From Anadara kagoshimensis (taxonomy: Eukaryota; Mollusca; Bivalvia; Arcoida; Arcidae), in assembly GCA_021292105.1 (NCBI GenBank), contig CM037868.1, forward strand, positions 35,095,523 to 35,159,522: a DNA stretch of 64,000 bases, given 5' to 3'. Of the stretch, positions 5,036 through 63,891 are shown piece after piece. Under the pieces are notes generated by a model. That model ran no database searches, had not been told where the DNA came from, and was given only the letters and a program-made list of their open reading frames with translations. Within the stretch, counting starts at the first letter, position 1, and each line of letters opens with the position of its first letter. The position numbers and the translations under genes were made by a program.

Positions 5036-6840
5036 TCATTCCCTAGGTTTACTAGCTTTAGCTACAAAATCCTTTATATCGCCTTCTGACTCGGTGTTTT
5101 CATCGTCAAATTCGATATTTGAAATAACTGCAAAAAAAGGTGTCAAAATAGCTACTATGACTCCACCAACTAGCATGAAGGGGATTGCCAGTACCCCACC
5201 GAGAAATGCCCCAGTCCCTATACCAATTGCTTTCAAAACTTTTAAAATTTTTTTTCCAGTTTCATTTTTGGCCACCGTATTTTCATCTTCTAACTTCTTT
5301 ATCAATTTTTCACGCAACCTCAATGCATCAATTTCTTTAAGAAAATCATCATTGATGCTTTTAGTTTTCTCTATAACATCGTACTCATACTTTTGTTTAA
5401 TTCTCGTGTCGATTTTTGTCTTTTCGCAAGTTTCCAAATCTCGTCCTAATCTCTTTTTTTCAGCCTCTTCTTCTGCCTTTATTTCTTCTTCCGCATGCTC
5501 TAATAATTCATTTCTTAAATCACGGAGACGATCGGCTTTCTTTGCCGTTAGTTTTTGAACACGATCATCAATTTTGCTTTGGATCATCCTTTCCAATTTT
5601 TCAAACAAATTATTTGTGTAATGGTCCTTGTTTATTTCTACCGTTTTGTCAATCAATTCAAATAAAAGTTTAACCTGTTCTTCGTCCTGAATCCTGTTGT
5701 TGAACCGCACATATCTTTGGTTACACATTTTCAGTAATTTTAACAGGTCTTTAGTCGCAGTATTCAAATACTGTTGAACATCCTGTCCATCATATATTAG
5801 GTCATCTTCATGGGTAAAAACTATAATTGCATGTTCAAACACCTGTTGGGTGAGATGCCATTGAATGAAATCTATTGTCTTCTTACATTCATCAGTATAA
5901 CGGTGTGTGAAACTCAGCACGATCAGTAAGGCATGAGGTCCTGGAGAACACATTATGTAACTTTCGACCATTGCATTTTGAAATTCAATGCCCGTCATCG
6001 ATGTATCGCATACACCTGGTGTGTCCACGATCGATACGACACGACCAAATCTCTTCTTGGATCTGTAGGTTGCACGTCTGGTGACAGAATGCGAAGCCAG
6101 TTTTGATAGAAAATACTTTTCTCCTAAAATTGTATTACCGGTAGAGCTTTTTCCAGTGCCAGTAGGACCCATAAGAAGTATTCGGACAGGACGATCTTTA
6201 TATAATTTCTCTAAATAATCTGTAAAAAAATATCTATTTTACCCCAAATGCATTTTTCAATAATTTTATGATGACAACCATAAACCATTACTTTGCCAAC
6301 TCCCGGAATTAAAATGTATTTGTTAGCAATTTTCCTTATTGTTATAAGTTCCCAATGTCGTTAAAATATTAGAGTAGCGTTTTAACTGTGATATAAACAC
6401 ATTGAAACTGGAGAAAAAGGAATATTACGCATTTTTAAAACAAATTGTCGATTGATAAATGAAGTCATCAAGTTTGACATACAGTTCATACATGTATAAT
6501 GCTTTTCGTTTGTGTTATAATTTAAGGAAAGTTCTGATTGAAAGAATTAGAATCTTCTAAATTAAACTCACTTTTGGTAGATGGCATCCAATAACTAAGA
6601 AATATTTAAAATGTGAACGCCTAGGCACCTAGCCACACTTTCATAGAAGAAGTTTTTACACTATTTACACGTTGCAAATGTTTTACTTTTGCTTCGAGAT
6701 ATTGGACTGGTATGTTTGGTTTTGGCAATTTGATGCTTTCATTAAGCCTTTAAATGACCACTTTCATATTCAACTTTTAGTGTTCAATTATTATCTGATT
6801 GTTTATTCATTTTAATCCTATGCTTACCTCTATCAGCCAT
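5036..6840 (-). CDS. GIMAP/AIG1-family GTPase, copy 1 (two coding exons, truncated tail)
   Basis: Join of 6840-6828 (ATGGCTGATAGAG, donor GTAAG) and 6219-5036 (acceptor TTTTTTTACAG). The phases fit exactly and give 398 residues beginning MADRDYLEKLY. Residues 22-29 are the P-loop GPTGTGKS, 70-73 are DTPG (G3), 140-144 are THEDD (the conserved G4-region box) and 173-179 are RYVRFNN (G5 region). A Lys/Glu-rich probable coiled coil covers about 205-325. A Gly-rich hydrophobic segment at about 336-371 probably anchors or inserts in a membrane. Family role: GTP-dependent scaffold or oligomer on intracellular membranes, linked to lymphocyte survival in vertebrates and to immune responses in molluscs; the role here is inferred. 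Against copy 2 there is a 2-nt deletion near 5045, so the protein ends at SKPRE and loses the acidic tail. Clear family membership; expression unknown. Confidence 0.93.
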
Positions 6841-6939: not shown

Positions 6940-7875
6940 TAACTAGTAAACTCTGAAATCAATCACAAACCAAAAGGAAAGTAAAATAAATTAAGTTAAT
7001 AAAAAACAAACATACCAATCCATGTCTAAATCACAAGCCAAAAGCAAAGTAAAATTAATCAAGTTAATAAAAACACCAAACATACTCATATATTTCCAAA
7101 TCACAAGCCTAAAGCAAAGTAAAATAAATCAAGTTAATAAAATAACCAAACATACCAATCCATGTCCAAATCACAAGCCAAAAGCAAAGTAAAATAAATC
7201 AAGTTAACAAAAACACCAAACAAACGAATCCATATCCAAATCACAAGCAAAAAGCAAAGTAAAGTAAATCAAGTTAATAAAAAAAACAAACATATCAATC
7301 CGTTTCCAAATCACAAGCCAAAAGCAAAGTAAAATAAATTAAGTGAATAAAAACACCAAACAAACCAATCCATGTCCAAATCACAAGCCAAAATCAAAGT
7401 AAAATAAATAAATTATTACAAACACCAAACATACCAATCCATGTCCAAATCACAAGCCAAAATCAAAGTAAAATAAATAAATTATTACAAACACCAAACA
7501 TACCAATCCATGTCCAAATCACAAACCAAAATCAAAGTAAAATAAATATATTTTAAAAACACCAAACATACCAATCCATGTCAAAATCACAAGGCAAAAG
7601 CAAAGTAAAATAAATTAATTAATAAAACACCAAACATACCAATCCAAGTCCAAATCACAAGCCAAAATCAAAGTAAATTTTTTGAAGTTAGTAAAAAAAA
7701 CCAAACATATCAATCTATGTCTAAATCACAATCTGAGAGAAAAGTGAAATCTTTGAAGAGAACCAAATACAAACATACCAATCCATATGCAAATCACAAG
7801 CCAAAAGCAAAGTGAAATCTTTGAAGTAAACAAAATACAAACATACCAATTCATGTCCAAATCACAATTTTAAAG
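6940..7875 (-). repeat. Minisatellite, ~68-70-bp unit, from a retroelement 3' tail
   Basis: About 13 head-to-tail units contain AATCACAAGCCAAAAGCAAA, then an AT-rich spacer, then AAACATACCAATCCATGTCC. This is the reverse complement of the terminal segment of the local Penelope-like elements (for example 32000-32050), extended by about 20 bp. It lies just upstream of GIMAP copy 1 exon 1 and is absent at the matching place upstream of copy 2. Confidence 0.9.
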
Positions 7876-8369
7876 CATAGTGAAAACTGAGAAGCTGGTA
7901 TAAGTTCATTTTAGAAAAACTGCTATTAATACTTTTTGTTACCAATTTAGTGTTTTTGACATTACTTAATTAAACAAAAAGGGCCAAAAACAGCACTGTA
8001 AAGGTATACGAGGGCGAGACAATAAGTAACCAGCTAGTTAAACACGTGAACGAGTTTTACCCATAGTACATTTAACCAAAAATTAAAATAAAATACATAA
8101 TTGCATTTCTTAGTGGCGTTCATTGTTGCCAAGTACAATATATTTACAGTAACAAAAACTATTTTTACCATTCATTTTAATTTATGTTAAAAACAAACAT
8201 ACCAATCGGTTTACTCATAAAAATCCCAACTTGAAATAAAATTATTTAAACTGGTAGTTTAAGCTAAACACGTAATCTCTCATCATTCTAATGAGACCGG
8301 CAATACAAATTCAATATACAGAAAAGGCATTGGAAACATTTATTATAAAAATCCCAATTTTGGACTTAC

Positions 8370-18256: not shown

Positions 18257-20257
18257 TTATTTCTCTTCAAAATCCTCCATATCAGTATCTGAAACGGTTT
18301 CGTCATCGTCATCTTCTAGTGATTTACTAGCAATCTCAACAAAATCCTTTATATCACCTTCTGACTCGGTGTTATCATCGTCAAAGTCGATGATTGAAAT
18401 AATTGCAATAATAGGTGTCATAATAGCTACCAAGACTCCTCCAACTAGCACGAAGGGGGCCGCTAGTACCCCACCGAGAAATCCTCCAAACACAATACCA
18501 ATTGTTTTCAAAACTTGTAAAACTTTTCTTCCAATGTCTTTTTTTGCCACCATATCTTCATCTTGTAACTTCTGTCTCAATTTTTCCCGCAACTTCAATG
18601 CATCTATTTCTTTACGAAATTCATCATTGATACTTTTAGTTTTCTTTATAACAACGTGCTCATATTTTTGTTTAATTATCGTGTCGATTTGTATCATTTC
18701 TATCTCTTCCAAATCCCGTCCTAATCTCTTTTTCTTTGCCTCTGCTTTTGCCTTTATATGCTGTTTTGCTTGTTCTAATGATTTCTCCCTTAAAACACGG
18801 AGAAGATCAGCTTTTTTTGCCATTAGGGCTTTAACGCGATCATCAATTTTGCTTTTGATTCCCTTTTCCAATTGTTCAAACAATGTATTTGTGTAATGGC
18901 CCTTGTTCATTTCTACCGTTTTGTCAATCAAATCAAATAAACGTTTAACCTGTTCTTCGCCCTGACTCCTGTTGTTGAATGGCACATATCTTTGATTACA
19001 CATATCCAGTAATTCGGACAGGTCTTTAGTCGCAGTATTTAAATACTGTTGAACATCTTGTTCATCATGTATTAGGTCATCTTCATGGGTTAAAACTATA
19101 ATTGCATGTTTAAACACCTGTTGGGTGAGATGCCATTTAATGAAATCGATCGTTTTCTTACATTCATAAGTATAACGTTGTTTGAAACTCAGCACGATCA
19201 GTAAGGCATGAGGTCCTGGAGAACACATTAAGTAACTTTCCATTATAGCATTTTGGAACTCAATGTCCGTCATCGTTGTGTCGCATACACCCGGTGTGTC
19301 CACGATCGATACTACACGACCAAATCTCTTCTTGGATCTGTAGGTTGCACGTCTGGTGACAGAATGCGAACCCAGTTTTGAAGGAAAATACTTCTCTCCT
19401 AGAATTGTATTACCGGTAGAGCTTTTTCCAGCTCCAGTAGGACCCATCATCAGTATTCGGACAGGGCGATCTTTATATAACTTCTCTAAATAACCTGTGA
19501 AAAAAACAATTATATTTTGGTCTTTTTGGTAGCTTTTAAACATCTTCAAAATAATTTTGGTTTCATAATTTTGGTCCAAGCACTACTGATGAGGAATTGT
19601 ATTCCAAAACGGCCGTCTTGTGCTGTACAATTAAAACTGGTATAATATGTAATACCTCCCCAAAAAAAATTCAATAATATTATGAATACAACCATAATCC
19701 ATTAGCTTGCCGAATCCAGATTTACAAATTTATTTGTTAACAACTTTCTTTATTAAGTCCCCAATGTCGTTACAAGTATAACAATACCGTTTAAACTATG
19801 ATGTAAACACATTAAAACTGGAAAAGCAGAAATATTGCTACATTGATAAAACAAGTTGTTGATAGATAAATGAAGTCATCAAGTTTGAAATACAGCTCAT
19901 ACATGTAAAATGCTTTTCGTTGGTGTCATAATTTAAGGAAAAGTTCTAATGTGAAGAATTAGAATCTTCTAAATTAAAATCCCTTTTGGTAGATGGCATC
20001 CAATACCTAAGAAATATTTAAAGATTGAACGCCTAAACACCGGGCCTCACTTTCAAAGAAGAAGTTTTTACCCTAATTTACACGTTGTAAATGTTTTACT
20101 TTTGCTTTCAGAAAGTGGATTGGTATGTTTGATTTTGGCAATTTGATGCTTTCATTTATACTTTAAATGATCACTTGATGTCATATTCAACTTTTAGTGT
20201 GCAAATATTAACTGATTGTTTATTCACATTAATAATATGTTTACCTTTATCAGCCAT
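18257..20257 (-). CDS. GIMAP/AIG1-family GTPase, copy 2 (two coding exons, full tail)
   Basis: Join of 20257-20245 (ATGGCTGATAAAG, donor GTAAAC) and 19494-18257 (acceptor TTTTTTCACAG), in phase, giving 416 residues starting MADKGYLEKLY. The open frame continues into the intron, but the shared acceptor and exon 1 define the start. P-loop GPTGAGKS is at 22-29, DTPG at 70-73, THEDD at 140-144 and RYVPFNN at 173-179. A long Lys/Glu-rich coiled coil and a Gly/Ala-rich hydrophobic segment (GGFLGGVLAAPFVLVGGVLV) follow. The acidic tail (LEDDDDETVSDTDMEDFEEK) is complete, unlike copy 1. An AATAAA word overlaps the stop codon. The 0.75-kb intron contains a hammerhead-bearing repeat on the opposite strand. 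It is closely related to copy 1 and probably a recent duplicate. Family role on intracellular membranes is known; the role here is inferred. Confidence 0.94.
19508..19648 (+). mobile_element. Ribozyme-bearing repeat inserted in the GIMAP copy 2 intron
   Basis: About 140 bp absent from the copy 1 intron. It has the same order as 55225-55360 in reverse: an AAAATTATTTTGG-like flank, the hammerhead (19580-19623), then AATTAAAACTGGTATAAT. It lies antisense to the GIMAP transcript. Confidence 0.7.
19580..19623 (+). ncRNA. Hammerhead ribozyme, one core substitution
   Basis: A 44-nt fold: stem I GCACTA/TTGTGC (one mismatch), CTGATGA core, stem II GGAAT/ATTCC with loop TGT, AAAA in place of GAAA, then CGGCCGTC. 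G12 of the core is A here, which is expected to abolish or strongly reduce cleavage. Every other core position matches the intact copy at 55244-55287. Confidence 0.65.
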
Positions 20258-28490: not shown

Positions 28491-28675
28491 AAAATCGTGT
28501 TTTAATATTGACTATTTAGGAAAACACATGATAAATATTCAACTCAAATTCTGTAAATTCTGTATGACCAGAAAAGAAAAATTACAGAACTTCATAGCGA
28601 TCGTGTATTAGGTAAACCATTCATGCAAATATTTAGCTCTTTAGATATAAAATTTGGTTTCACATTTTTGTCGAA

Positions 28676-28719
28676 TCACTTTTAATGAGGAATAGTATTC
28701 CGAAACGGTCATCTAGTGC
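28676..28719 (+). ncRNA. Degenerate hammerhead ribozyme motif
   Basis: Stem II (GGAAT/ATTCC, loop AGT) and GAAA are kept, but the CTGATGA core is TTAATGA and stem I is only partly paired. Probably inactive. It lies about 150 bp upstream of the GIMAP copy 3 promoter block. Confidence 0.5.
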
Positions 28720-28826
28720 AGTAAAATGCAAATATTATGTAATCCAATAAACGTATCTGTTAAAATATTTTACTTAAATATTTTGATAAAACTTGAAAAA
28801 AAAAAGATAATAACTGATATGAATGA

Positions 28827-33000: not shown

Positions 33001-34647
33001 TGCAAGAAATAAGTAAGTAATGTTCATCTTCAACCAGATTTTAATTGCATTATGTGATGTTTATTGTTTTTCGCATTTGACTAGATGTTTTCTGAAAATA
33101 AAGGAAGGAAACAAAAATATCAGTCTATTTGCAATAAGACTACAATTATAATGTTATGCTTGGGGAAAGTCTGAAATAACTGATTTGATGTTTTGAAATT
33201 AATTTATTCAAATAAATCAATAAATATTCTATTTCTAAATGAATAATAAAATTATCAATTGTGTAATTACATATCATAGTTAAACGCTATTACATTACTT
33301 GTAACCAAAATGTATACCAACAAAGAAAGTTGCTAACAAATAAGTTGTTGTAACAGGAATTTTTGCAAGCTAATTGTTTATGATTGTCATCATAATATTA
33401 TTGAAAAATATATTTGGGATTTAATAAGTATTTGTTTTTTTTTCACAGGCTATTTAGAGAAGCTTTATAAAGGAGGTCCTGTCCGAATATTAATGATGGG
33501 TCCGACTGGCGCTGGAAAAAGTGATACAGGTAATACAATTTTAGGAGAAAAGTATTTTCCTTCAAAACTGGCTTCGCATTCTGTTACCAGACGTGCAGCC
33601 TACAGATCTAAGAAGAGATTTGGTCGTGTCGTATCGGTAGTGGACACACCAGGTGTATGCGATACAACGATGACGGCCATTGAATTCCAAAATGTTATAA
33701 TGGAAAGTTACATTATGTCTTCTCCTGGACCCCATGCCTTACTCATCGTTCTGAATTTAAAAGCCCGTTATACTGATGAATGTAAGAAGACAATCGATTT
33801 CATAAAAAAGCATCTCACCAAACAGGTGTTTAAACATGTGATTGTGGCTTTTACCCATGAAGATTGCCTCATAGAAGAAAAGGGTAAGCTTGAAGAGTAT
33901 TTGAAAACTGCAACTAAAGACCTTTCCGAATTACTGAACATGTGTAATCAAAGATATGTGCCATTCAACAACAAGATTGAGGACGACGAACAGGTTATAC
34001 GTTTATTTGAACTGATCGATAAAACGGTAGAAATCAACAAGGGCCATTACACAAATAAATTCTTTGAAGAATTTGAAAAGAAACTCCAAAGCAGAATTGA
34101 CCAGCACATTAAAACCCTAACGAAAAAGAAATCTGCTCAGCTCCGTGCTTTAAAGTCGGAATCAACAAAATATGTGGAGGCGGAAATAAAGGTAAAAGAA
34201 AATGCTGAAAAAGAGAAACTACATCGAGATTTGGAAATAAAAGAAAAGAAAACAATTGAAACAAATATTGAACAACAATATGAGCATGTTGTTCAAGAGA
34301 AAACTGAACTGATTAATCATCATTTTGCCATAAAAATGGATGAATGGAAGTTGCGAGAAGAATTGATTAAGAAGTTGGAAAAAGAAAATCTGGTGGCAAA
34401 AAATGAAGTTGGAAGAATTGTTTTAAAATGTTTGAAAAAAGTGGGTATTGGAATTGGGGCATTTCTCGGTGGGGTACTAGCAGCCCCTCTCTTACTAGTT
34501 GGGGGAGTCGTAGTAGCTATTGTGGCACCTGTTGCTGCAGTGATTACAAGCATTGTGTTAGACGACGATACTACCGAGCCAGACGACGATATAAAGGATT
34601 TTGTAGATCAAAAGGTGGCAATTATCCCACAAACTTTAAATCCTTAA
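30051..34647 (+). CDS. GIMAP/AIG1-family GTPase, copy 3 (two coding exons, inverted)
   Basis: Join of 30051-30063 (ATGGCTGATAAAG, donor GTAAGC) and 33449-34647 (acceptor TTTTTTTTTCACAG), in phase, giving 403 residues starting MADKGYLEKLYKGGPVR. The P-loop is GPTGAGKS at 22-29, followed by DT where copies 1 and 2 have ST. DTPG is at 70-73, THED at 140-143 and RYVPFNN at 173-179. A Lys/Glu-rich coiled coil and a hydrophobic Gly/Ala segment (GAFLGGVLAAPLLLVGGVVV) follow. The tail is shorter and different from copies 1 and 2, ending IIPQTLNP. The 3.4-kb intron is filled with retroelement debris, including a GIY-YIG frame. A polyadenylation signal AATAAA stands at 34721-34726, 74 nt after the stop. 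The coiled coil and tail differ from copies 1 and 2 much more than those two differ from each other. Confidence 0.93.
30165..30400 (-). pseudogene. Degenerate retroelement 3' end fragment
   Basis: Reverse-orientation 3' UTR landmarks are recognisable but diverged: CCACAATCCAAAAGCAAA tail, CATCCACCAGGAAAGTGAG, CACCTCCTGTATAACTAGC. Confidence 0.6.
30866..31216 (-). CDS. GIY-YIG endonuclease fragment of a Penelope-like element
   Basis: A 116-residue open frame. Residues about 18-40 read VIYKFQCLEDSSVTYVGKTK, a GIY-YIG start (YKF...YVG) with the following KTKR and the catalytic-region RITEH. SAIFNHVENCKKC (possible zinc ligands) and ILEALHIKDERPTLNKQ close the domain, with E and N where GIY-YIG nucleases place their metal-binding and structural residues. 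This layout, with HV..C..C between the helix and the end, is that of the nuclease fused to RT in Penelope-like elements. The N-terminal side abuts an RT fragment on the opposite strand (31205 on), so the ORF is cut from its own RT. It lies in the intron of GIMAP copy 3 and is probably a relic, although still open. Confidence 0.7.
   Translation of the reverse strand: MLSINISKSNSVLKASVIYKFQCLEDSSVTYVGKTKRFLQRRITEHNKTGSAIFNHVENCKKCKEFGITKCLKSLNKSNSDFDLVILEALHIKDERPTLNKQLAGYGTTFLLNVFQ
31205..32060 (+). pseudogene. Penelope-like RT fragment with complete 3' UTR
   Basis: It encodes the RT core stretch FQQTIGIPMGTNCA then LLADLFLYSYKAEFMQNL. Frameshifts follow, then SLNNPKFGDFVNGIYPSELE, KDTTDSSSSASYLDLYL, KLNDKRDDFNFSIVNFPF and the RT end. 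The catalytic aspartates lie in a damaged IDDV region near 31400. The 3' UTR (31850-32050) ends GGATTAGTATGTTTG. RT is known in this family; assignment to the Penelope-like class is by motif and by the nearby GIY-YIG. Confidence 0.75.
32225..32512 (-). other. Unrecognised open stretch in the GIMAP copy 3 intron
   Basis: About 95 codons stay open on the minus strand without a start Met, containing CRPCGNIDCGYTHDANAC, DYIRKLKLKDVTGLPIW and SCWCSYAKTVGEPMPTFPP. The Cys spacing suggests protein sequence, probably from an old transposon. No family could be named. Confidence 0.25.
32640..32850 (+). pseudogene. Retroelement 3' UTR fragment, well preserved
   Basis: It carries the reference form of both hairpins: GGTGCT/AGCACC and a second with arms CTTCC/GGAAG around CATGGT. 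It is truncated to the 3' UTR. Confidence 0.75.
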
Positions 34648-44814: not shown

Positions 44815-45225
44815 GGAACTATGGGACGTCAAATATATCCGGGGATATCCTGGCCACAGAGACATCCAACTTATCAACAATACTATTTTCAAACTACGGG
44901 GACTTTGAACAACGAAGGAGGCTGCTTGCTAATAAATTGTTGACTCAGGGATATTGCAAGCCTAGGCTTATCAAGGCCCTTAAAAAGTTTTATAACCATT
45001 ATCACAGTATTGTTGATAAGTTTGACGTCTCTGTGTCTAGGATTGCCCTGATGTTTGACGTCTCATAGTTCCGTGTTTCTGTCACACAATTTTGATTACA
45101 CACGTGACGGGTGTAGCTAGCTAAACAGGAGGTGCTTTCCGTTCCGGAGCACCCGGCCTCACTTCCTTGGTGGAAGTTCACGTGTATAATCTAACTTGTC
45201 AGTTCCAAAGTTTTTACTTTGCTTC
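44815..45225 (+). pseudogene. Two retroelement 3' ends in converging arrangement
   Basis: 44815-44885 is a reverse-oriented RT end (TATGGAACTATGGGACGTCA). Directly after it, from about 44893, comes a forward RT C-terminus (CGGGGACTTTGAACAACGAA ... AAGTTTTATAACCATTATCA) with the full 3' UTR, which runs into the minisatellite. Confidence 0.75.
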
Positions 45226-46193
45226 TGCATTGTGATTCGGACATAGATTAGTATGTTTGCTTTTACTTTGCTTCTGGATTGTGATTCGGACATGGATTAG
45301 TATGTTTGTTTTTACTTTACTTCTGGATTGTGATTCGGACATGGATTAGTATGTTTGTGTTTACTTTGCTTCTGGATTTTGATTCGGACATGGATTAGTA
45401 CGTTTGTTTTAACTTTGCTTCTGGATTATGATTCGGACATGGATTAGTACGTTTGTTTCTACTTTGATTCTGGATTGTGATTCGGACATGAATTGGCATG
45501 TTTGTTTTTACTTTGCTTCTGGATAGTGTTTCGGACATGGAATAGTATGCTTGTTTTAACTTTGCTTCTGGATTGTGATTCGGACATAAATTAGTATGTT
45601 TGTTTTTACTTTGCTTCTGGATTGTGATTCGGACATGGATTGGCATGTTTGTTTTTACTTTGCTTCTGAATAGTGTTTCGGACATTGATTAGTATGTTTG
45701 TTTTTACTTTGCTTCTGGATTGTGATTCGGACATGGATTGGCATGTTTGTTTTTACTTTGCTTCTGGATTGTGATTCGGACATGGATTAGTACGTTTGTT
45801 TTTACTTTGCTTCTGGATTGAGATTCAGACATGGATAAGAACGTTTGTTTTTACTTTGCTTCTGGATTGTGATTCGGACATGGATTAGTACGTTTGTTTT
45901 TACTTTGTTTCTGGATTGTGATTCGGACATGGTTTAGTACGTTTGTTTTTTCTTTGCTTCTGGATTCTGATTCGGACATGGATTAGAATGTTTGTTTTTA
46001 CTTTGCTTCTGGATTGTGATTCGGACATGGATTAGTATGTTTGCTTTTACTTTGCTTCTGGATTGTGATTCGGACATGGATTAGTACGTTTGTTTTTACT
46101 TTGATTCTGGATTGTGATTCGGACATGGATTAGTACATTTGTTTTTACTTTACTTCTGGATTCTGATTCGGACATGGATTAGTATGTTTGTTT
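45226..46193 (+). repeat. Minisatellite, 49-bp unit, from a retroelement 3' tail
   Basis: About 20 head-to-tail units of TTTTTACTTTGCTTCTGGAT + TGTGATTCGGACATGGATTA + GTATGTTTG. The unit equals the last 49 bp of the element whose 3' UTR immediately precedes it, so it grew in place at that element's 3' end. The antisense 96-residue frame across it is an artefact. Confidence 0.95.
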
Positions 46194-46199
46194 TTGATT

Positions 46200-48668: not shown

Positions 48669-49850
48669 TACAATACAGGCCTGTCGAAAGTTTAACACTA
48701 AATTAACGAAAAGGAGTCAAATTTTGGCTACCAGGTGGCAAAGATATTAATAATCATTGGCCAAGAGATAGATACCAGCTGCCGAGATCTAGCTAACAAA
48801 GGGCCCAAATAAGCTGTCGACGATTTGGCCCTTATAAGCTACAGTACAGACCTGTCGAAAGTTTAACACCAACCTAACGAATTAGTGCAGAATCGACAAC
48901 TCATCTCAGACACTAATAAGTTATATGTACAGTACAGACCTGTCGAAAGTTTAACACCAACCTAACGAATTAGTGCAGAATCGACAACTCATCTCAGACA
49001 CTAATAAGTTATATGTACAGTACAGACCTGTCGAAAGTTTAACACCAACCTAACGACTTAGTGCAGAATCGACAACTCATCTCAGACACTAATAAGTTAT
49101 ATGTACAGTACAGACCTGTCGAAAGTTTAACACCAACCTAACGAATTAGTGCAGAATCGACAACTCATCTCAGACACTAATAAGTTATAAGCTACAGTAC
49201 AGACCTGTCGAAAGTTTAACACCAACCTAACGAATTAGTGCAGAATCGACAACTCATCTCAGACACTAATAAGTTATAAGCTACAGTACAGACCTGTCGA
49301 AAGTTTAACACCAACCTAACGAATTAGTGCAGAATCGACATCTCATCTCAGACACTAATAAGTTATATGTACAGTACAGACCTGTCGAAAGTTTAACACC
49401 AACCTAACGAATTAGTGCAGAATCGACAACTCATCTCAGACACTAATAAGTTATATGTACAGTACAGACCTGTCGAAAGTTTAACACTCACCTAACGAAT
49501 TAGTGCAGAATCGACAACTCATCTCAGACACTAATAAGTTATATGTACAGTACAGACCTGTCGAAAGTTTAACACTAAACTAACGAATTAGTGCAGAATC
49601 GACATCTCATCTCAGACACTGATAAGTTATATGTACAGTACAGACCTGTCGAAAGTTTAACACCAACCTAACGAATTAGTGCAGAATCGACATCTCATCT
49701 CAGACACTAATACGTTTTATGTATAGCAGCTGTCATATATCTCTCGACAGCATTTTGGTAACTTGCTATCTTTATACTGCCACTCGGCAGTCGAGTATTT
49801 GACAACTATTCGTTAGCTTAATGTTTAACTTTCGACAAGTCCGTACTGTA
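48669..49850. mobile_element. MITE with internal 88-bp tandem amplification
   Basis: The outer left end is TACAATACAGGCCTGTCGAA and the outer right end is TTCGACAAGTCCGTACTGTA, related to the MITE at 22501-22716. Ten units of 88-89 bp start at about 48840, 48928, 49016, 49104, 49193, 49282, 49369, 49457, 49545 and 49633. Each begins with the TIR sequence TACAGTACAGACCTGTCGAA and continues CACCAACCTAACGAATTAGT. Units are nearly identical, so the expansion is recent. Confidence 0.9.
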
Positions 49851-51659: not shown

Positions 51660-52305
51660 CAGGGGCGGATCCAGAGTCTTGGTGAATGGGGGGCACAAGT
51701 ATGCGCCAAAGGCGCGAACTGCTACAGAAATTTTTTTCGCTTTTTTCAGTCCAAATGGTGCAATTTCCTGCATTTTGAACACTGTCGAGCGTCCTTTTTA
51801 CCTCGCATTCAAAGTGGATCTAAACCAGTCAAAGAACTAATCAGTCTAGCTTTTTTCAAGAATTGTAATATTAACGCAGGTGGCTATGAGTGTCGGTGAG
51901 TTCATAATATCTTTATCAATATATGTCTATCAACTGTACTGTCTAAAGTCGCCGTCGGCAACTTGTATTGTCGGTCTTTTTATCTGTCGAGGTGTAGTTG
52001 TGCACCGCAGATCCAGACCGACTCTTTTTTGCGTTATATTAGAGTCCGTTCGACCTTTGGAAGTTGTAGATCGATACTTCGATCCATCGGAGGGATACCA
52101 GTGACAAGGGGCCTCGGTTTTTAAGGTTTGTCTGAAAGACCCACATTCATTTTTTAATGCCGAACGACGAACAGTCACAACCCTTTTTCAATTCTTGGAT
52201 CAGACCTGACCAGAGACCAAACCCTCGACCTCCTTGACTTACGCAGCAAGCACTTTACCAACTGACCTGCCTGCTACATATGCCGAAGGGGTAGGCCTCC
52301 TATTA
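51660..52305. repeat. Long dispersed repeat, copy 2, cut by the assembly gap
   Basis: Same order as 38815-39715. It stops exactly where the first copy enters its poly-C run, at which point the N gap begins. Confidence 0.8.
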
Positions 52306-53305
52306 NNNNNNNNNNNNNNNNNNNNNNNNNNNNNNNNNNNNNNNNNNNNNNNNNNNNNNNNNNNNNNNNNNNNNNNNNNNNNNNNNNNNNNNNNNNNNNN
52401 NNNNNNNNNNNNNNNNNNNNNNNNNNNNNNNNNNNNNNNNNNNNNNNNNNNNNNNNNNNNNNNNNNNNNNNNNNNNNNNNNNNNNNNNNNNNNNNNNNNN
52501 NNNNNNNNNNNNNNNNNNNNNNNNNNNNNNNNNNNNNNNNNNNNNNNNNNNNNNNNNNNNNNNNNNNNNNNNNNNNNNNNNNNNNNNNNNNNNNNNNNNN
52601 NNNNNNNNNNNNNNNNNNNNNNNNNNNNNNNNNNNNNNNNNNNNNNNNNNNNNNNNNNNNNNNNNNNNNNNNNNNNNNNNNNNNNNNNNNNNNNNNNNNN
52701 NNNNNNNNNNNNNNNNNNNNNNNNNNNNNNNNNNNNNNNNNNNNNNNNNNNNNNNNNNNNNNNNNNNNNNNNNNNNNNNNNNNNNNNNNNNNNNNNNNNN
52801 NNNNNNNNNNNNNNNNNNNNNNNNNNNNNNNNNNNNNNNNNNNNNNNNNNNNNNNNNNNNNNNNNNNNNNNNNNNNNNNNNNNNNNNNNNNNNNNNNNNN
52901 NNNNNNNNNNNNNNNNNNNNNNNNNNNNNNNNNNNNNNNNNNNNNNNNNNNNNNNNNNNNNNNNNNNNNNNNNNNNNNNNNNNNNNNNNNNNNNNNNNNN
53001 NNNNNNNNNNNNNNNNNNNNNNNNNNNNNNNNNNNNNNNNNNNNNNNNNNNNNNNNNNNNNNNNNNNNNNNNNNNNNNNNNNNNNNNNNNNNNNNNNNNN
53101 NNNNNNNNNNNNNNNNNNNNNNNNNNNNNNNNNNNNNNNNNNNNNNNNNNNNNNNNNNNNNNNNNNNNNNNNNNNNNNNNNNNNNNNNNNNNNNNNNNNN
53201 NNNNNNNNNNNNNNNNNNNNNNNNNNNNNNNNNNNNNNNNNNNNNNNNNNNNNNNNNNNNNNNNNNNNNNNNNNNNNNNNNNNNNNNNNNNNNNNNNNNN
53301 NNNNN
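52306..53305. other. Assembly gap (1,000 N)
   Basis: Exactly 1,000 N characters, a conventional placeholder length. Reading frames across it are meaningless. Confidence 1.
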
Positions 53306-53410
53306 ACGATAATACAACAATACATACATTTTGATGAGTATATATATTGAATAGGTTTGAGAGAGAGAGAGAGAGAGAGATTTTCACACTATAATTTCAA
53401 GATTGTTCTT

Positions 53411-53790
53411 TGTGTTCTATATAACAATACGGTGGATTTGTTGTCATTCTCTTTGAAAATTTATTTTTACCTACTTTTCTAACATATTCTTACCTCATAA
53501 TTACAATTTATATCAGTTAATCAAATACTACCAGCCCTGGCCAGAAAGTCACTTATAGACATTGGCTATTGTGTTCTATATAACAATACGGTGGATTTGT
53601 TGTCATTCTCTTTGAAAATTTATATCAGTTAATCAAATACTACCAGCCCTGGCCAGAAAGTCACTTATAGACATTGGCTATTGTGTTCTATATAACAATA
53701 CGGTGGATTTGTTGTCATTCTCTTTGAAAATTTATTTTTACCTACTTTTCTAACATATTCTTACCTCATAATTACAATTTATATCAGTTT
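53411..53790. repeat. Direct tandem repeat, ~120-170-bp unit
   Basis: GTGTTCTATATAACAATACG appears three times (about 53411, 53571, 53684), each followed by GTGGATTTGTTGTCATTCTC. ACTACCAGCCCTGGCCAGAA is found twice between them. Confidence 0.9.
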
Positions 53791-53800
53791 TAATTTTACA

Positions 53801-53844
53801 GTACTAGACGGCATTTTCGAAATACAATTCTTCATCAGTAGTGC
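53801..53844 (-). ncRNA. Hammerhead ribozyme motif, weakened stems
   Basis: The CTGATGA core and GAAA are intact and the length is 44 nt, but stem I has one mismatch, stem II starts A/C with a G-T pair, and stem III is disrupted (ATGCCG instead of CGGCCG). Activity is doubtful. Confidence 0.5.
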
Positions 53845-54108
53845 TCGGATGAAAATTGTAAAACCAATTTTTTTGTTTAAAGACGTTGAAATATCCAGAG
53901 GACTAAGAAACTTTACTGATATTTAGTATACTTTTAAGAATTTAATATTTTATCTAGCAGGAAATTTAGACAATAGTATATTTCTGACAATAATACACTT
54001 AAATTCTCTACTGAGTTAGTGATATATATATATACTCGGGAGAACATCGAGCAACAGAGATACAGGCTTAGTAGTTTAAATTAAATATATACCAGTTTTA
54101 ATTTTACA

Positions 54109-54154
54109 GTACGGTGGCCTTTTCGGAATACGAATAATACTTTATTAGTAGTGC
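54109..54154 (-). ncRNA. Degenerate hammerhead ribozyme motif
   Basis: The core is CTAATAA instead of CTGATGA, and stem I is broken on the 3' side. The position within the repeat identifies it. Confidence 0.4.
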
Positions 54155-54605
54155 TTGAACCAAAATTGTGATCCTAACATTTTTCTCAAGATGGCAAAGA
54201 TACCCAAGGGACCAAATATTATTGAGAATTTTTTTCGAATTATATTTTTTTTGAATTATTCAATTGTTAAACGGTGTCGACTTAAACATAGTCAGCTATT
54301 AAAGAGATATCAATCCTACAATTAAATCACAAGTTTTATGTAATGAGGGTTACTTCCCTTGTGTTAGCACTTTCTGTCGTTTGCTAGCCAATAAATGTAG
54401 TGATTTTGGTCAAGGAAAGTATCTAAATCTGTATTAAAGACATTCTTAAACTGAATGTAATGGCTGAACAATAAAACTTATCTCTTCCAACTGTAAACTT
54501 AGTGGCCCAGAATACTGAGAATGGTACTGGAATTTAATATTGGGATGGAACTGGTTGACCTAGAAAACTAATCAAATTACATATTATAACAGCTTTAAGT
54601 TTACA

Positions 54606-54637
54606 GCACTAGACGGCCGTTTCCTCAACAGCAGTGC
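54606..54637 (-). ncRNA. Hammerhead ribozyme motif with stem II deleted
   Basis: Stem I and CGGCCGTC remain, but the region between CTGTTGA and GAAA has lost one arm of stem II (32 nt in place of 44). Inactive by inspection. Confidence 0.45.
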
Positions 54638-55243
54638 TTGGACCAAAATTATGAAACCAAAATTATTTTGAAGATGTTGCAAAGCTACCCAAAGGACCAA
54701 AATATATTTTACCAAATTAAGCTAAGGAAATACTTTGCATGAGGGAGTATACCTTAGTTTTTGAGAAATTTCAAATTTTAACTTGCGGGAAATTTAGACA
54801 ATTATAGCATATTTCTGACAATAATACGAAATTATTGCCTATTGAGTTTGTCATATCCTCGGGGCACCAGCCACCAGCCGAGATATCGGCTCAGGGGTTC
54901 AAACCGACTTTCCTACTAGGAGAAGCCTTCGTTGATAGGTATAACACTAGAACAATTTTTATAAAATATTCCTACAATCTCTGAAAATCTGATTCAAATC
55001 ATAAAATATGACACGCTAAATTCACAAAATTTCGAAAAACAACGTTTCTTGCCTCGAAGCACAGTAACCCGAACGGGAAACCCAATATCTTGCATTTTGT
55101 GAAATTTGCGTGACCAGAAAATATAAATCTCGTTGAGAAGTTAAGATTCCATTGCAAGTAACTATTGTTCACGTACGAAATACTAGATTTCCCGATCTTG
55201 TTTTACTAATTAAATTCAATATTATACCAGTTTTATATTTACA

Positions 55244-55287
55244 GCACTAGACGGCCGTTTCGGAATACAATTCCTCATCAGTAGTGC
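55244..55287 (-). ncRNA. Hammerhead ribozyme, intact (type I, minimal stem III)
   Basis: Minus strand, 5' to 3': GCACUA (stem I), CUGAUGA, GGAAU-UGU-AUUCC (stem II with triloop), GAA, then ACG-GC-CGU (A15.1-U16.1 plus two pairs), C17, and UAGUGC, which closes stem I with six perfect pairs. All core nucleotides (C3 U4 G5 A6 U7 G8 A9, G12 A13 A14, C17) are present. Predicted cleavage is between 55250 and 55249. Very short stem III hammerheads of this kind are known from Penelope-like elements and animal retrozymes, and often act as dimers. Fold by inspection only. Confidence 0.85.
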
Positions 55288-55610
55288 TTGGACCAAAATT
55301 ATGAAACCAAAATTATTTTGAAGATGTTGAGAAGCTACACAAAAAAAATTATTTTACCAAATTAAGCTAAGGAAATACTTTGTATGAGGAAGTATACCTT
55401 AGTTTTTGAGAAATTTCCAATTTTAAAACGAAAAAAATTAGTTTCTCGACTAGAAACCTAAATTGCCGATAGTGATTATGTTCTCGCCTAACTTGACGAA
55501 GTGAATTTCGTTCAGTTACTGTGTTTTCCCGCGATTCTTATTTAATTGGCGTCTGGTTTATTTTCTACATAAGTTCACTATTTTAATATTTTATGGGTAT
55601 ATTTTAATAG

Positions 55611-62164: not shown

Positions 62165-63891
62165 TTAGTTACAATTATCGTTAACGGGAATGTAGTGGAT
62201 AGCATTAGCCGGTTTATCTAATGCGTCCTCGATATGGTTCAGTCCAATGCAATTCCCTGTCCCTGGTGTAAAGAAGAATGATTTACATCCATTTTTATCC
62301 AGGCTGCATATCGTCGCACATGGGATAACAGTACCTGTCTGAAGAATCCATGATGCCACAGCATTCGTTTGTTTCTGGTGTTCAATGGCAGATTGTTTAT
62401 AAAACGTTCCTAAAACAACATCAATGATAACATACAAATAATGAATTTGCGATAATTTAATTTAAACATGGTAAAATATCAATCAATAAATAGTACTTTG
62501 TTATTATAATTAATCGATTTAAAAAGATATCAAAAAAATTTATACACAATATTAAAAAAAGTTCCTTCCATTGCAAATTTTATTTCACACGTGACGGGTG
62601 TAGCTAGCTAAACTGGAGGTGCTTACCTTTCCAAAGCACCATGCATCACATCCCTAGTTGAACATCATGTGTTTAACCTAATTTGTAAACTTTCTTTACT
62701 TTGGTTTTTTAGTTCTGTTTAAACATGGATTTGTAGCTTTGATTTTGGTTGTATTATGCCTTTATCCTGGATAAAATTAACGTGCTATTGTTCCATACTC
62801 TTTTTATACCGAAGTTACATTTTAAACAGCGGGTGTACCTAGCCAAAGCGTAGTTGCTTGTCCTTACGGAGTACATGTACTCATTTCCGATTGCCAAATT
62901 TCACTTTAGTTTTTGGATTGTTATTTCAACATAAAATGATATTTTGGTGTATTATTAAATGGTTTCTGCAGTAGTTCCTTACACAACGGTGTTCAAAATA
63001 TTTTTTATTTCATTCATTATAAAACTTTTTTCTGCAGTTCTCTGTTGAACTAGTCACTTGTGCCGAATTACAACTCGTATCATATTTAATCACATTTAAC
63101 ATCAGTTTTAATTTTACAGCACTAGGAATACATTTTTCATAAGTAGTGCATGCGAAACTAAAATTGTTTTAAAATGTTGAACAGATACCCAAAGGGCCAA
63201 AATATATATTTACCAAACTTAGCAAAGGAAATATTTTGCATGAGGGAGTATAACTTAGTGTTTGAGAAAAGATTCAAGACTCACTACAGAAATATCATAC
63301 TATTATTGAGTGTTATTTTAATGGCGTGTTCTGTTAAGTTCATAACCCATTTTACATTTTCTCAAGCACAAACTTGTCTTTCGATGTTCATTAAATAGAA
63401 ACAGTCTTGCTAATTTCGCTGTTTTTAAATTCTATATAAAAATACTTATTCATGCCTTTCTCAGAAACCATCATAAAACTTTTAAACTGACAAATAAGGT
63501 GTAATAAGCGAACTTCCACGAGAGAAGTGTGTTCAGGAAGGGTAAGCACCTTTTGTTTAGCTAGCTACACTACCACGTGTGTAATCAAAATTCCCAGTGA
63601 AAGGAACATGGAACTATGTGACGTCAAATATATACAATATATCTAGGGCAATCCTTGACACTTAGACATTATACTAATCGACAATATTACGATAATTAAA
63701 AACACCTTATTATTGGACCCTTGAAAAAATAAATATCATACCTTGTCTAGTTGAATTGTCACAACTCTCGGTTTCGTTTCTGTTATTATTATTTGTTTCT
63801 GTGTTGCTATTGCTACTGATATTTGTCGGTTTACATGCGTCTTTGACGTCTGGTAGTGCCATCGTAACACCGCTTGTTGTAAAATTACAAA
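62165..63891 (-). CDS. PAN/apple-like secreted protein, last two exons (5' end outside window)
   Basis: Exon 63891-63742 (acceptor TTATTATCTCTTAG, donor GACAAG/GTATG) and exon 62409-62165 (acceptor GATGTTGTTTTAG, stop TAG) join in phase as G+GA. The first encodes CNFTTSGVTMALPDVKDACK followed by an Asn/Ser/Thr/Glu-rich linker (TNISSNSNTETNNNNRNETE) with several N-glycosylation sequons. The second encodes a compact domain with four cysteines in CATIC...GCKSFFF...NCIGL, the usual PAN/apple spacing, ending YIPVNDNCN. PAN domains bind proteins or carbohydrates in secreted and receptor proteins. The phase at the left edge of the first exon shows that at least one more exon lies beyond 64000. The intron is filled with retroelement and ribozyme-repeat remnants. 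Identification rests on Cys pattern and length. Confidence 0.6.
62586..62760 (+). pseudogene. Retroelement 3' UTR fragment
   Basis: It starts ACACGTGACGGGTGTAGCTA, has the first hairpin (GGTGCTT/AAGCACC) and a degraded second one, and ends near AACATGGATTTGTAGC. It lies in the PAN-like gene's intron; a more diverged relative follows at about 62790-62940. Confidence 0.65.
63095..63290 (-). mobile_element. Ribozyme-bearing repeat, hammerhead deleted in part
   Basis: The flanks match 54590-54780 (ATCAGTTTTAATTTTACAG; ACCCAAAGGGCCAAAATATA; CATGAGGGAGTATAACTTAG). The hammerhead itself (63119-63149) has lost the GAAA-stem III part and has CTTATGA for CTGATGA, so it is inactive. Confidence 0.6.
63480..63695 (-). 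pseudogene. Retroelement 3' UTR and RT end fragment
   Basis: Reverse orientation: ACTGACAAATAAGGTGTAAT, AAGGGTAAGCACCTTTTGTT, TAGCTAGCTACACTACCACG and GAACTATGTGACGTCAAATA. It lies just downstream (minus strand) of the first PAN-gene exon. Confidence 0.7.

Follow-up and report, generated by a model that had tools for sequence, protein, structure and literature searches.

Known systems

The described systems closest to the element studied here include the non-LTR retrozymes of the mussel Mytilus galloprovincialis, for which the accessible text of the original report gives about 5,000 hammerheads in repeats of about 350–390 bp, together with circular RNA (PMC7229834). The same text leaves open what moves animal retrozymes and puts forward Penelope-like elements (PLEs) as a strong but unproven candidate. 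In the available portions of the PLE literature, a pseudo-LTR carrying a hammerhead and a tail is a feature of these elements, as in Poseidon and rotifer Penelope (PMC11167929, PMC3846280), and the Anolis PLE protein initiates reverse transcription internally, at this 'tail' (PMC11167929). A fixed end at the tail is a published PLE signature. A link to PLEs also exists for small hammerheads acting as dimers (Luense et al. 2017), in forms that are said, in the accessible part of PMC7761336, to lack helix III. The portions of the open-licence literature available to us contained no statement on a fixed tail end of animal retrozymes.

The window analyzed here is a whole stretch of 64,000 nucleotides from the bivalve Anadara kagoshimensis (contig CM037868.1). 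The genome assembly comprises 1.115 Gb in 19 large contigs (C1–C19) and 17 small ones, compared with 14 chromosomes in mussels. The number of large contigs is in keeping with a bivalve, 19 chromosomes being given for a clam, and no mitochondrial genes were seen by eye in the first 8 kb of contig C24.

Hammerhead motif and its copies in the window

The minus strand at 55240–55291 (CCAAGCACUACUGAUGAGGAAUUGUAUUCCGAAACGGCCGUCUAGUGCUGUA) was found to contain a type I hammerhead, with the conserved core and three stems and with its ends in stem I (Table 1). The core pattern CTGANGA...CGAAAC...GTC matched once in the window against 0.02 matches expected, and was present in 2 of 100 shuffled sequences. 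Cleavage between 55250 and 55249 is predicted from the hammerhead core, which is the same position that an earlier note on this DNA had proposed. That note had also described a complete set of catalytic-core nucleotides and a 5-bp stem II with the triloop UGU, both of which were recovered; its 6-bp stem I is indeed paired but extends to 7 bp, and its stem III of 3 bp with a 2-nt loop is disallowed by the folding model that we used.

A cmscan search of a 71-base stretch aligned RF00163 (Hammerhead_1) to 55244–55287 over its full length (model positions 1–45 of 45) with 28.1 bits and an E-value of 1.1e-5 that applies to this small search; the score lies below the Rfam gathering score of 34. No hammerhead was listed when the whole window was scanned at gathering thresholds or when 1,044 bases were scanned permissively, so that among the Rfam searches the motif was shown by the 71-base scan only. 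The lack of any match to a hammerhead model, named in the earlier note as the outcome that would speak against its reading, thus holds at the curated threshold but not for the full-length alignment below it. The core and the fold confirm that 55243–55288 is a real hammerhead, although its score places it outside the Rfam family as delimited by the curated threshold.

A covariance model of the family detected seven hammerheads or hammerhead remnants in the window (E-values up to 0.044), four of which had been used in building the model. Among these seven, only the motif at 55243–55288 retained the core and all three stems.

Table 1. Features of the 64,000-nt window (unit positions are counted from the cleavage site).
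Feature	Position	Strand	Remarks
Type I hammerhead, intact	55243–55288	−	Complete core; Rfam alignment 55244–55287; 79.3 bits with the family covariance model, which was built with this copy included
Parts of this hammerhead	55243–55288	−	7-bp stem I, CUGAUGA, 5-bp stem II closed by a UGU loop, GAA, stem III formed by the palindrome ACGGCCGU, C17
Retrozyme copy with the intact hammerhead	55210–55426	−	Unit 158 through 339 to 40; 92% to the L009 unit
Tail of about 37 nt, cleavage site to copy 3' end	55213–55249	−	In 50 of 54 copies the 3' end lies at unit 35–41
Second copy, about one full circle	54574–54903	−	Unit 36 to 38; alignment of 342 columns
Hammerhead remnant of second copy	54605–54638	−	Short; stem II missing by eye
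Old copy, more than one unit (72%)	53770–54216	−	Two altered hammerheads, 53800–53845 and 54108–54155
Copy adjoining an AIG1/GIMAP frame (18257–19582, −)	19508–19653	+	Hammerhead 19579–19624, G12 to A (GAAA to AAAA)
Old fragment	28650–28725	+	Altered hammerhead 28675–28720; 77.9 bits; outside the count of 54 copies
Old copy (75%) ending at unit 40	63085–63269	−	Hammerhead remnant 63118–63150, weak, E 0.044
AIG1/GIMAP-type GTPase frame	5036–6238	−	
AIG1/GIMAP-type GTPase frame	18257–19582	−	
AIG1/GIMAP-type GTPase frame	33337–34647	+	
Tandem array	45210–46195		Period 49 bp
Tandem array	48832–49723		Period 88 bp
Tandem array	6961–7867		Period 70 bp
Run of N	about 52300–53310		Either an assembly gap or withheld sequence

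The three AIG1/GIMAP frames of the window lie inside inverted repeats of up to about 720 bp. At another locus (L073), the frame at 7075–7920 resembles a piggyBac-type transposase.

Retrozyme family in the genome

Searching the 1.115-Gb genome with the exact core pattern CTGATGAN{8,20}CGAAACGGCCGTC revealed 4,696 matches (2,422 + 2,274), and exact 18-nt tails numbered 7,999; the reversed-pattern control gave 0 in both cases. Part of the excess of tails over cores is explained by decay at the 20 letters that the core pattern fixes. A 66-base query returned 743 candidates, and the 40 that were scored were all identical to it. The carrier unit, taken from locus L009, measures 339 bp with 34% GC and occurs singly, truncated or in tandem; neighboring cores in arrays lie 338–339 bp apart, including one array of five hammerheads at that spacing. 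The earlier claim of a hammerhead within a repeat is thereby borne out.

Animal non-LTR retrozymes are characterized by units of 150–450 bp, a GC content of less than 50%, type I hammerheads in tandem copies, and dispersed insertions. The present family falls within these ranges, and its insertions are dispersed, with unrelated flanks between loci and a mostly fixed 3' end. No reverse transcriptase or GIY-YIG nuclease frame was found in the 339-bp unit, which separates it from autonomous PLEs. Frames of at least 180 aa in loci L001–L050 and the window were GIMAP-type frames, their antisense or one repetitive frame (partly judged by eye). The carrier resembles the animal non-LTR retrozymes that were reported from mussels in 2020, with which it has in common a type I hammerhead, low GC content, tandem copies and few or no loop–loop contacts, as given in the accessible text (PMC7229834). 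Compared by description, the mussel family has about 5,000 copies and a unit of about 350–390 bp, whereas the present one has 4,696 exact cores and a unit of 339 bp.

The tail occurs as a commoner variant, TGTAAAATTAAAACTGG, and as the rarer variant of the window copy, TGTAAATATAAAACTGG, among 100 places listed on contig C1, which indicates subfamilies. Two matches to the core pattern in IMG/VR (L051, L052) were rejected as chance matches: L051 has a phage-type coding frame there, the two loci are closely alike at this place, and no stem I was seen by eye.

Predicted folding

The isolated hammerhead strand preferred a different fold, with a minimum free energy (MFE) of −12.3 kcal/mol versus −7.8 for the hammerhead with a 2-bp stem III and −8.6 for the hammerhead without stem III, and its stability was unexceptional (z −1.84; 12 of 200 shuffles as good). 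For two strands, the predicted MFE structure was a double hammerhead of −34.5 kcal/mol, compared with 2 × −12.3, in which stems I and III form between the strands. This cofold lends in silico support to the earlier suggestion that the ribozyme may act as a dimer.

In the predicted circular fold of one unit, 58% of the bases were paired versus 56% in 60 shuffled sequences (z −0.94), a proportion not above chance; highly self-paired circles are a reported property of animal non-LTR retrozymes. No covariation beyond that of shuffled alignments was detected among 16 hammerhead copies, as expected for freely decaying copies.

Copy ends, lengths and flanks

Copy ends are given as unit positions counted from the cleavage site. 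The first sample consisted of the window and 40 places chosen by an exact junction-spanning 66-mer, for which shorter copies were ineligible; here, matches to a head-to-tail series of units were scored if they reached 140 bits. The 3' end lay at unit 35–41 in 50 of the 54 copies of this sample, a count that includes the near-identical duplicates L012/L013 and two L041 copies with a common 3' flank; the four exceptions ended at 20, 25, 28 and 228, the last being cut by the locus edge. Twelve matches below 140 bits, with ends at unit 12, 18, 25, 27, 30, 181, 191, 208, 243, 257, 325 and 326, were excluded. The second sample, chosen by the core, used 22 of 30 loci after exclusion of those that were in the same array, overlapping or already used, and yielded 28 rows, which were reduced to 26 copies by removing two edge-cut second views; L089/L091 and L092/L095 are near-identical pairs. 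Among these distinct copies, 19 of 26 ended at unit 33–42, including a 1.7-kb array, and the other seven ended at 313, 19, 27, 27, 27, 20 and 325. Minor ends near +25 to +28 were seen in both samples.

The 5' ends were scattered, giving copy lengths of 81–899 bp, with 13 of 52 copies exceeding one unit and 39 of 52 being shorter. A mild cluster was observed near unit 147–175 (11 of 52 in a 22-nt stretch, p 0.033). There was no pile-up at the cleavage site, where a single 5' end of 52 lay within 5 nt (L030, unit 337), and copies ran across the junction between units.

When flanks within 60 bp of the boundaries were compared between different loci (L013 omitted), no upstream sharing and only one matching downstream pair were found; in this pair an inverted copy follows both retrozyme copies. 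At L028, two copies stand tail to tail across a palindrome. The 3' tail contains GGTATAATATGTAA, and the two bases after ATATGTAA were A or T in 98% and 100% of 44 copies. Target-site duplications were mostly undetectable among 46 copies, of which two stood out (12 bp and 9 bp); 5-bp matches numbered 18 versus 10 expected. No poly(A) or simple-repeat end was present at the 54 copy junctions.

Two tail-only pieces of 16–19 nt were detected in 40 kb taken from set positions (L043, L047), compared with an average of 0.35 and a maximum of 2 per 249 kb for shuffled 14-mers. On contig C1, 27 of 100 listed tails had an exact core versus an expected 0.40 (Fisher p 0.04), which is suggestive only.

Penelope-like elements of the same genome

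Scoring of 150 of 248 candidates revealed at least 50 GIY-YIG matches in the genome, in frames of up to 762 aa; an RVT_1 match (E 1.3e-8) shares its reading frame with the GIY-YIG match that has the 762-aa frame. The 3' anatomy of these PLEs was examined in nine pieces downstream of the nuclease, drawn from 50 GIY-YIG matches. A minimal hammerhead with a palindromic stem III was present in seven of the nine (L104, L106–L111), of the type CTGAAGA...GAAA-GCGCTA, with GTACTA in L104; L106 has a changed core and L110 misses the stem I rule. No hammerhead was found in the L113 piece. L112 carries a different hammerhead-like motif, CTGATGAAGGCC...GGCCGAAAGCTTGACC, near 860, 860 nt away.

From the PLE cleavage site, about 40–46 nt (by eye) lead to the point at which copies diverge, in two PLE groups, or to (TA)n; L110, alone of its kind, gives no PLE end. 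The retrozyme shows this same order of hammerhead, short tail and copy end, in 50 of 54 and 19 of 26 copies. The (TA)n repeats follow the PLE copies near the hammerhead tail in L104, L107, L108 and L111 and perhaps reflect a target preference.

A strict descriptor was passed by five of the seven PLE hammerhead pieces and had 0 matches in 40 kb from set positions. Its 11 kinds of match in the window and in the other retrieved loci of the genome were all of retrozyme type. Rfam named no hammerhead in the PLE motifs of L107 and L108, and the PLE motifs were identified by the descriptor and by eye. The double hammerhead was the predicted cofold MFE structure for two of four PLE motifs (L104 and L107, not L108 and L110). 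No likeness to the retrozyme was found in the nine nuclease-downstream pieces or in one 5' piece (best E 0.59). The relation between retrozymes and PLEs raised in the earlier note gains support from these data and is made more exact by the copy ends and by the PLE hammerheads of the same genome.

Discussion

We consider it probable, at roughly 65%, that the motif serves a small, non-coding, retrozyme-like retroelement of about 339 nt as its ribozyme and that this element is spread by PLE-type internal priming from junction-spanning RNA. Cleavage, circles and the helper role of a PLE are inferred parts of the following scheme. Tandem copies would be transcribed, and two hammerheads, on one RNA or on two, would combine into a double hammerhead by way of stems I and III and cleave 3' of C17; the cut units could then be ligated into circles, as reported for mussels. 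PLE machinery may nick AT-rich DNA and begin reverse transcription at an internal position of the RNA, some 36 nt beyond the cleavage site. From there synthesis would pass the unbroken ribozyme junction and continue for a varying length, in some cases for more than one round.

In the available portions of the papers on Poseidon of Anolis (PMC11167929) and rotifer Penelope (PMC3846280), these PLEs have, as seen or proposed for the retrozyme, a minimal type I hammerhead, an AT-rich target, an internal start, a tail of 30–40 bp, partial tandems and inverted neighbors, whereas the retrozyme unit differs from them in having no reverse transcriptase or nuclease frame. The distance from cleavage site to copy end is about 36 nt here, compared with 85–92 nt from cleavage to start site in Anolis, as calculated from the accessible text (PMC11167929). 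As with the hammerheads of Luense et al. (2017), a weak or palindromic stem III would favor dimers, the palindrome being our own observation; unlike the forms described in the accessible part of PMC7761336, the present motif has more stem III pairs and a short non-coding carrier.

The form of the template bears on the details of this scheme. A unit RNA cleaved at both ends has only about 36–37 nt between its 5' end and the copy 3' end, and copies longer than this must therefore derive from RNA with an unbroken or resealed junction, that is, a circle or an uncut multimer. In seven multi-unit copies, units were generally no more alike within than between copies (one L031 pair excepted), and this comparison does not distinguish a circle from a multimer. 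PLE-type movement of uncleaved multimeric transcripts, with a ribozyme dispensable for copying, is somewhat unlikely: ribozyme mutations do not prevent in vitro insertion of the anole PLE according to the accessible text (PMC11167929) and the 5' ends do not pile up where cleavage is predicted, with one in 52 lying within 5 nt, but mussel retrozymes accumulate as circles (PMC7229834, accessible text). The ribozyme itself would be inactive sequence in a further reading, for which the monomer MFE fold, loop–loop partners that are not evident by eye and the score below Rfam gathering can be cited; the complete core, the 4,696 exact core copies and the strong predicted dimer fold make this improbable.

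LINE-driven copies, too, typically have a fixed 3' end and 5' truncation of variable extent, and a SINE-like element whose tail is recognized by a LINE reverse transcriptase, the ribozyme only trimming transcripts, could further account for the clear 9-bp and 12-bp duplications. Such an origin appears unlikely given that a poly(A) or simple-repeat end is absent at 54 junctions and that the hammerhead–tail–end layout is common to PLEs of the same genome. Head-to-tail arrays at 338–339 bp would likewise suit satellite DNA grown by unequal crossing-over or DNA rolling circles with the hammerhead as a passenger, but 39 of 52 sampled copies are shorter than one unit, and the copies lie scattered among unrelated flanks and keep a constant 3' end, which renders this explanation very improbable.

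Within the preferred reading of PLE-type internal priming, we tentatively propose that the retrozyme may be a parasite of PLEs: a PLE protein would recognize the tail and use circular RNA as the template of a target-primed, rolling-circle reverse transcription that begins at one fixed internal position, and single, truncated, multi-unit and tail-only (16–19 nt) insertions would form one product series. The end anatomy brings animal retrozymes closer to PLEs than earlier proposals did, as far as the accessible text goes (PMC7229834). Fixed copy ends past the ribozyme, together with similarly built PLEs in the same genome, make the question of the mover directly testable, namely whether reverse transcription starts at the tail and whether circles or uncleaved RNA are copied, and suggest how such small repeats spread.
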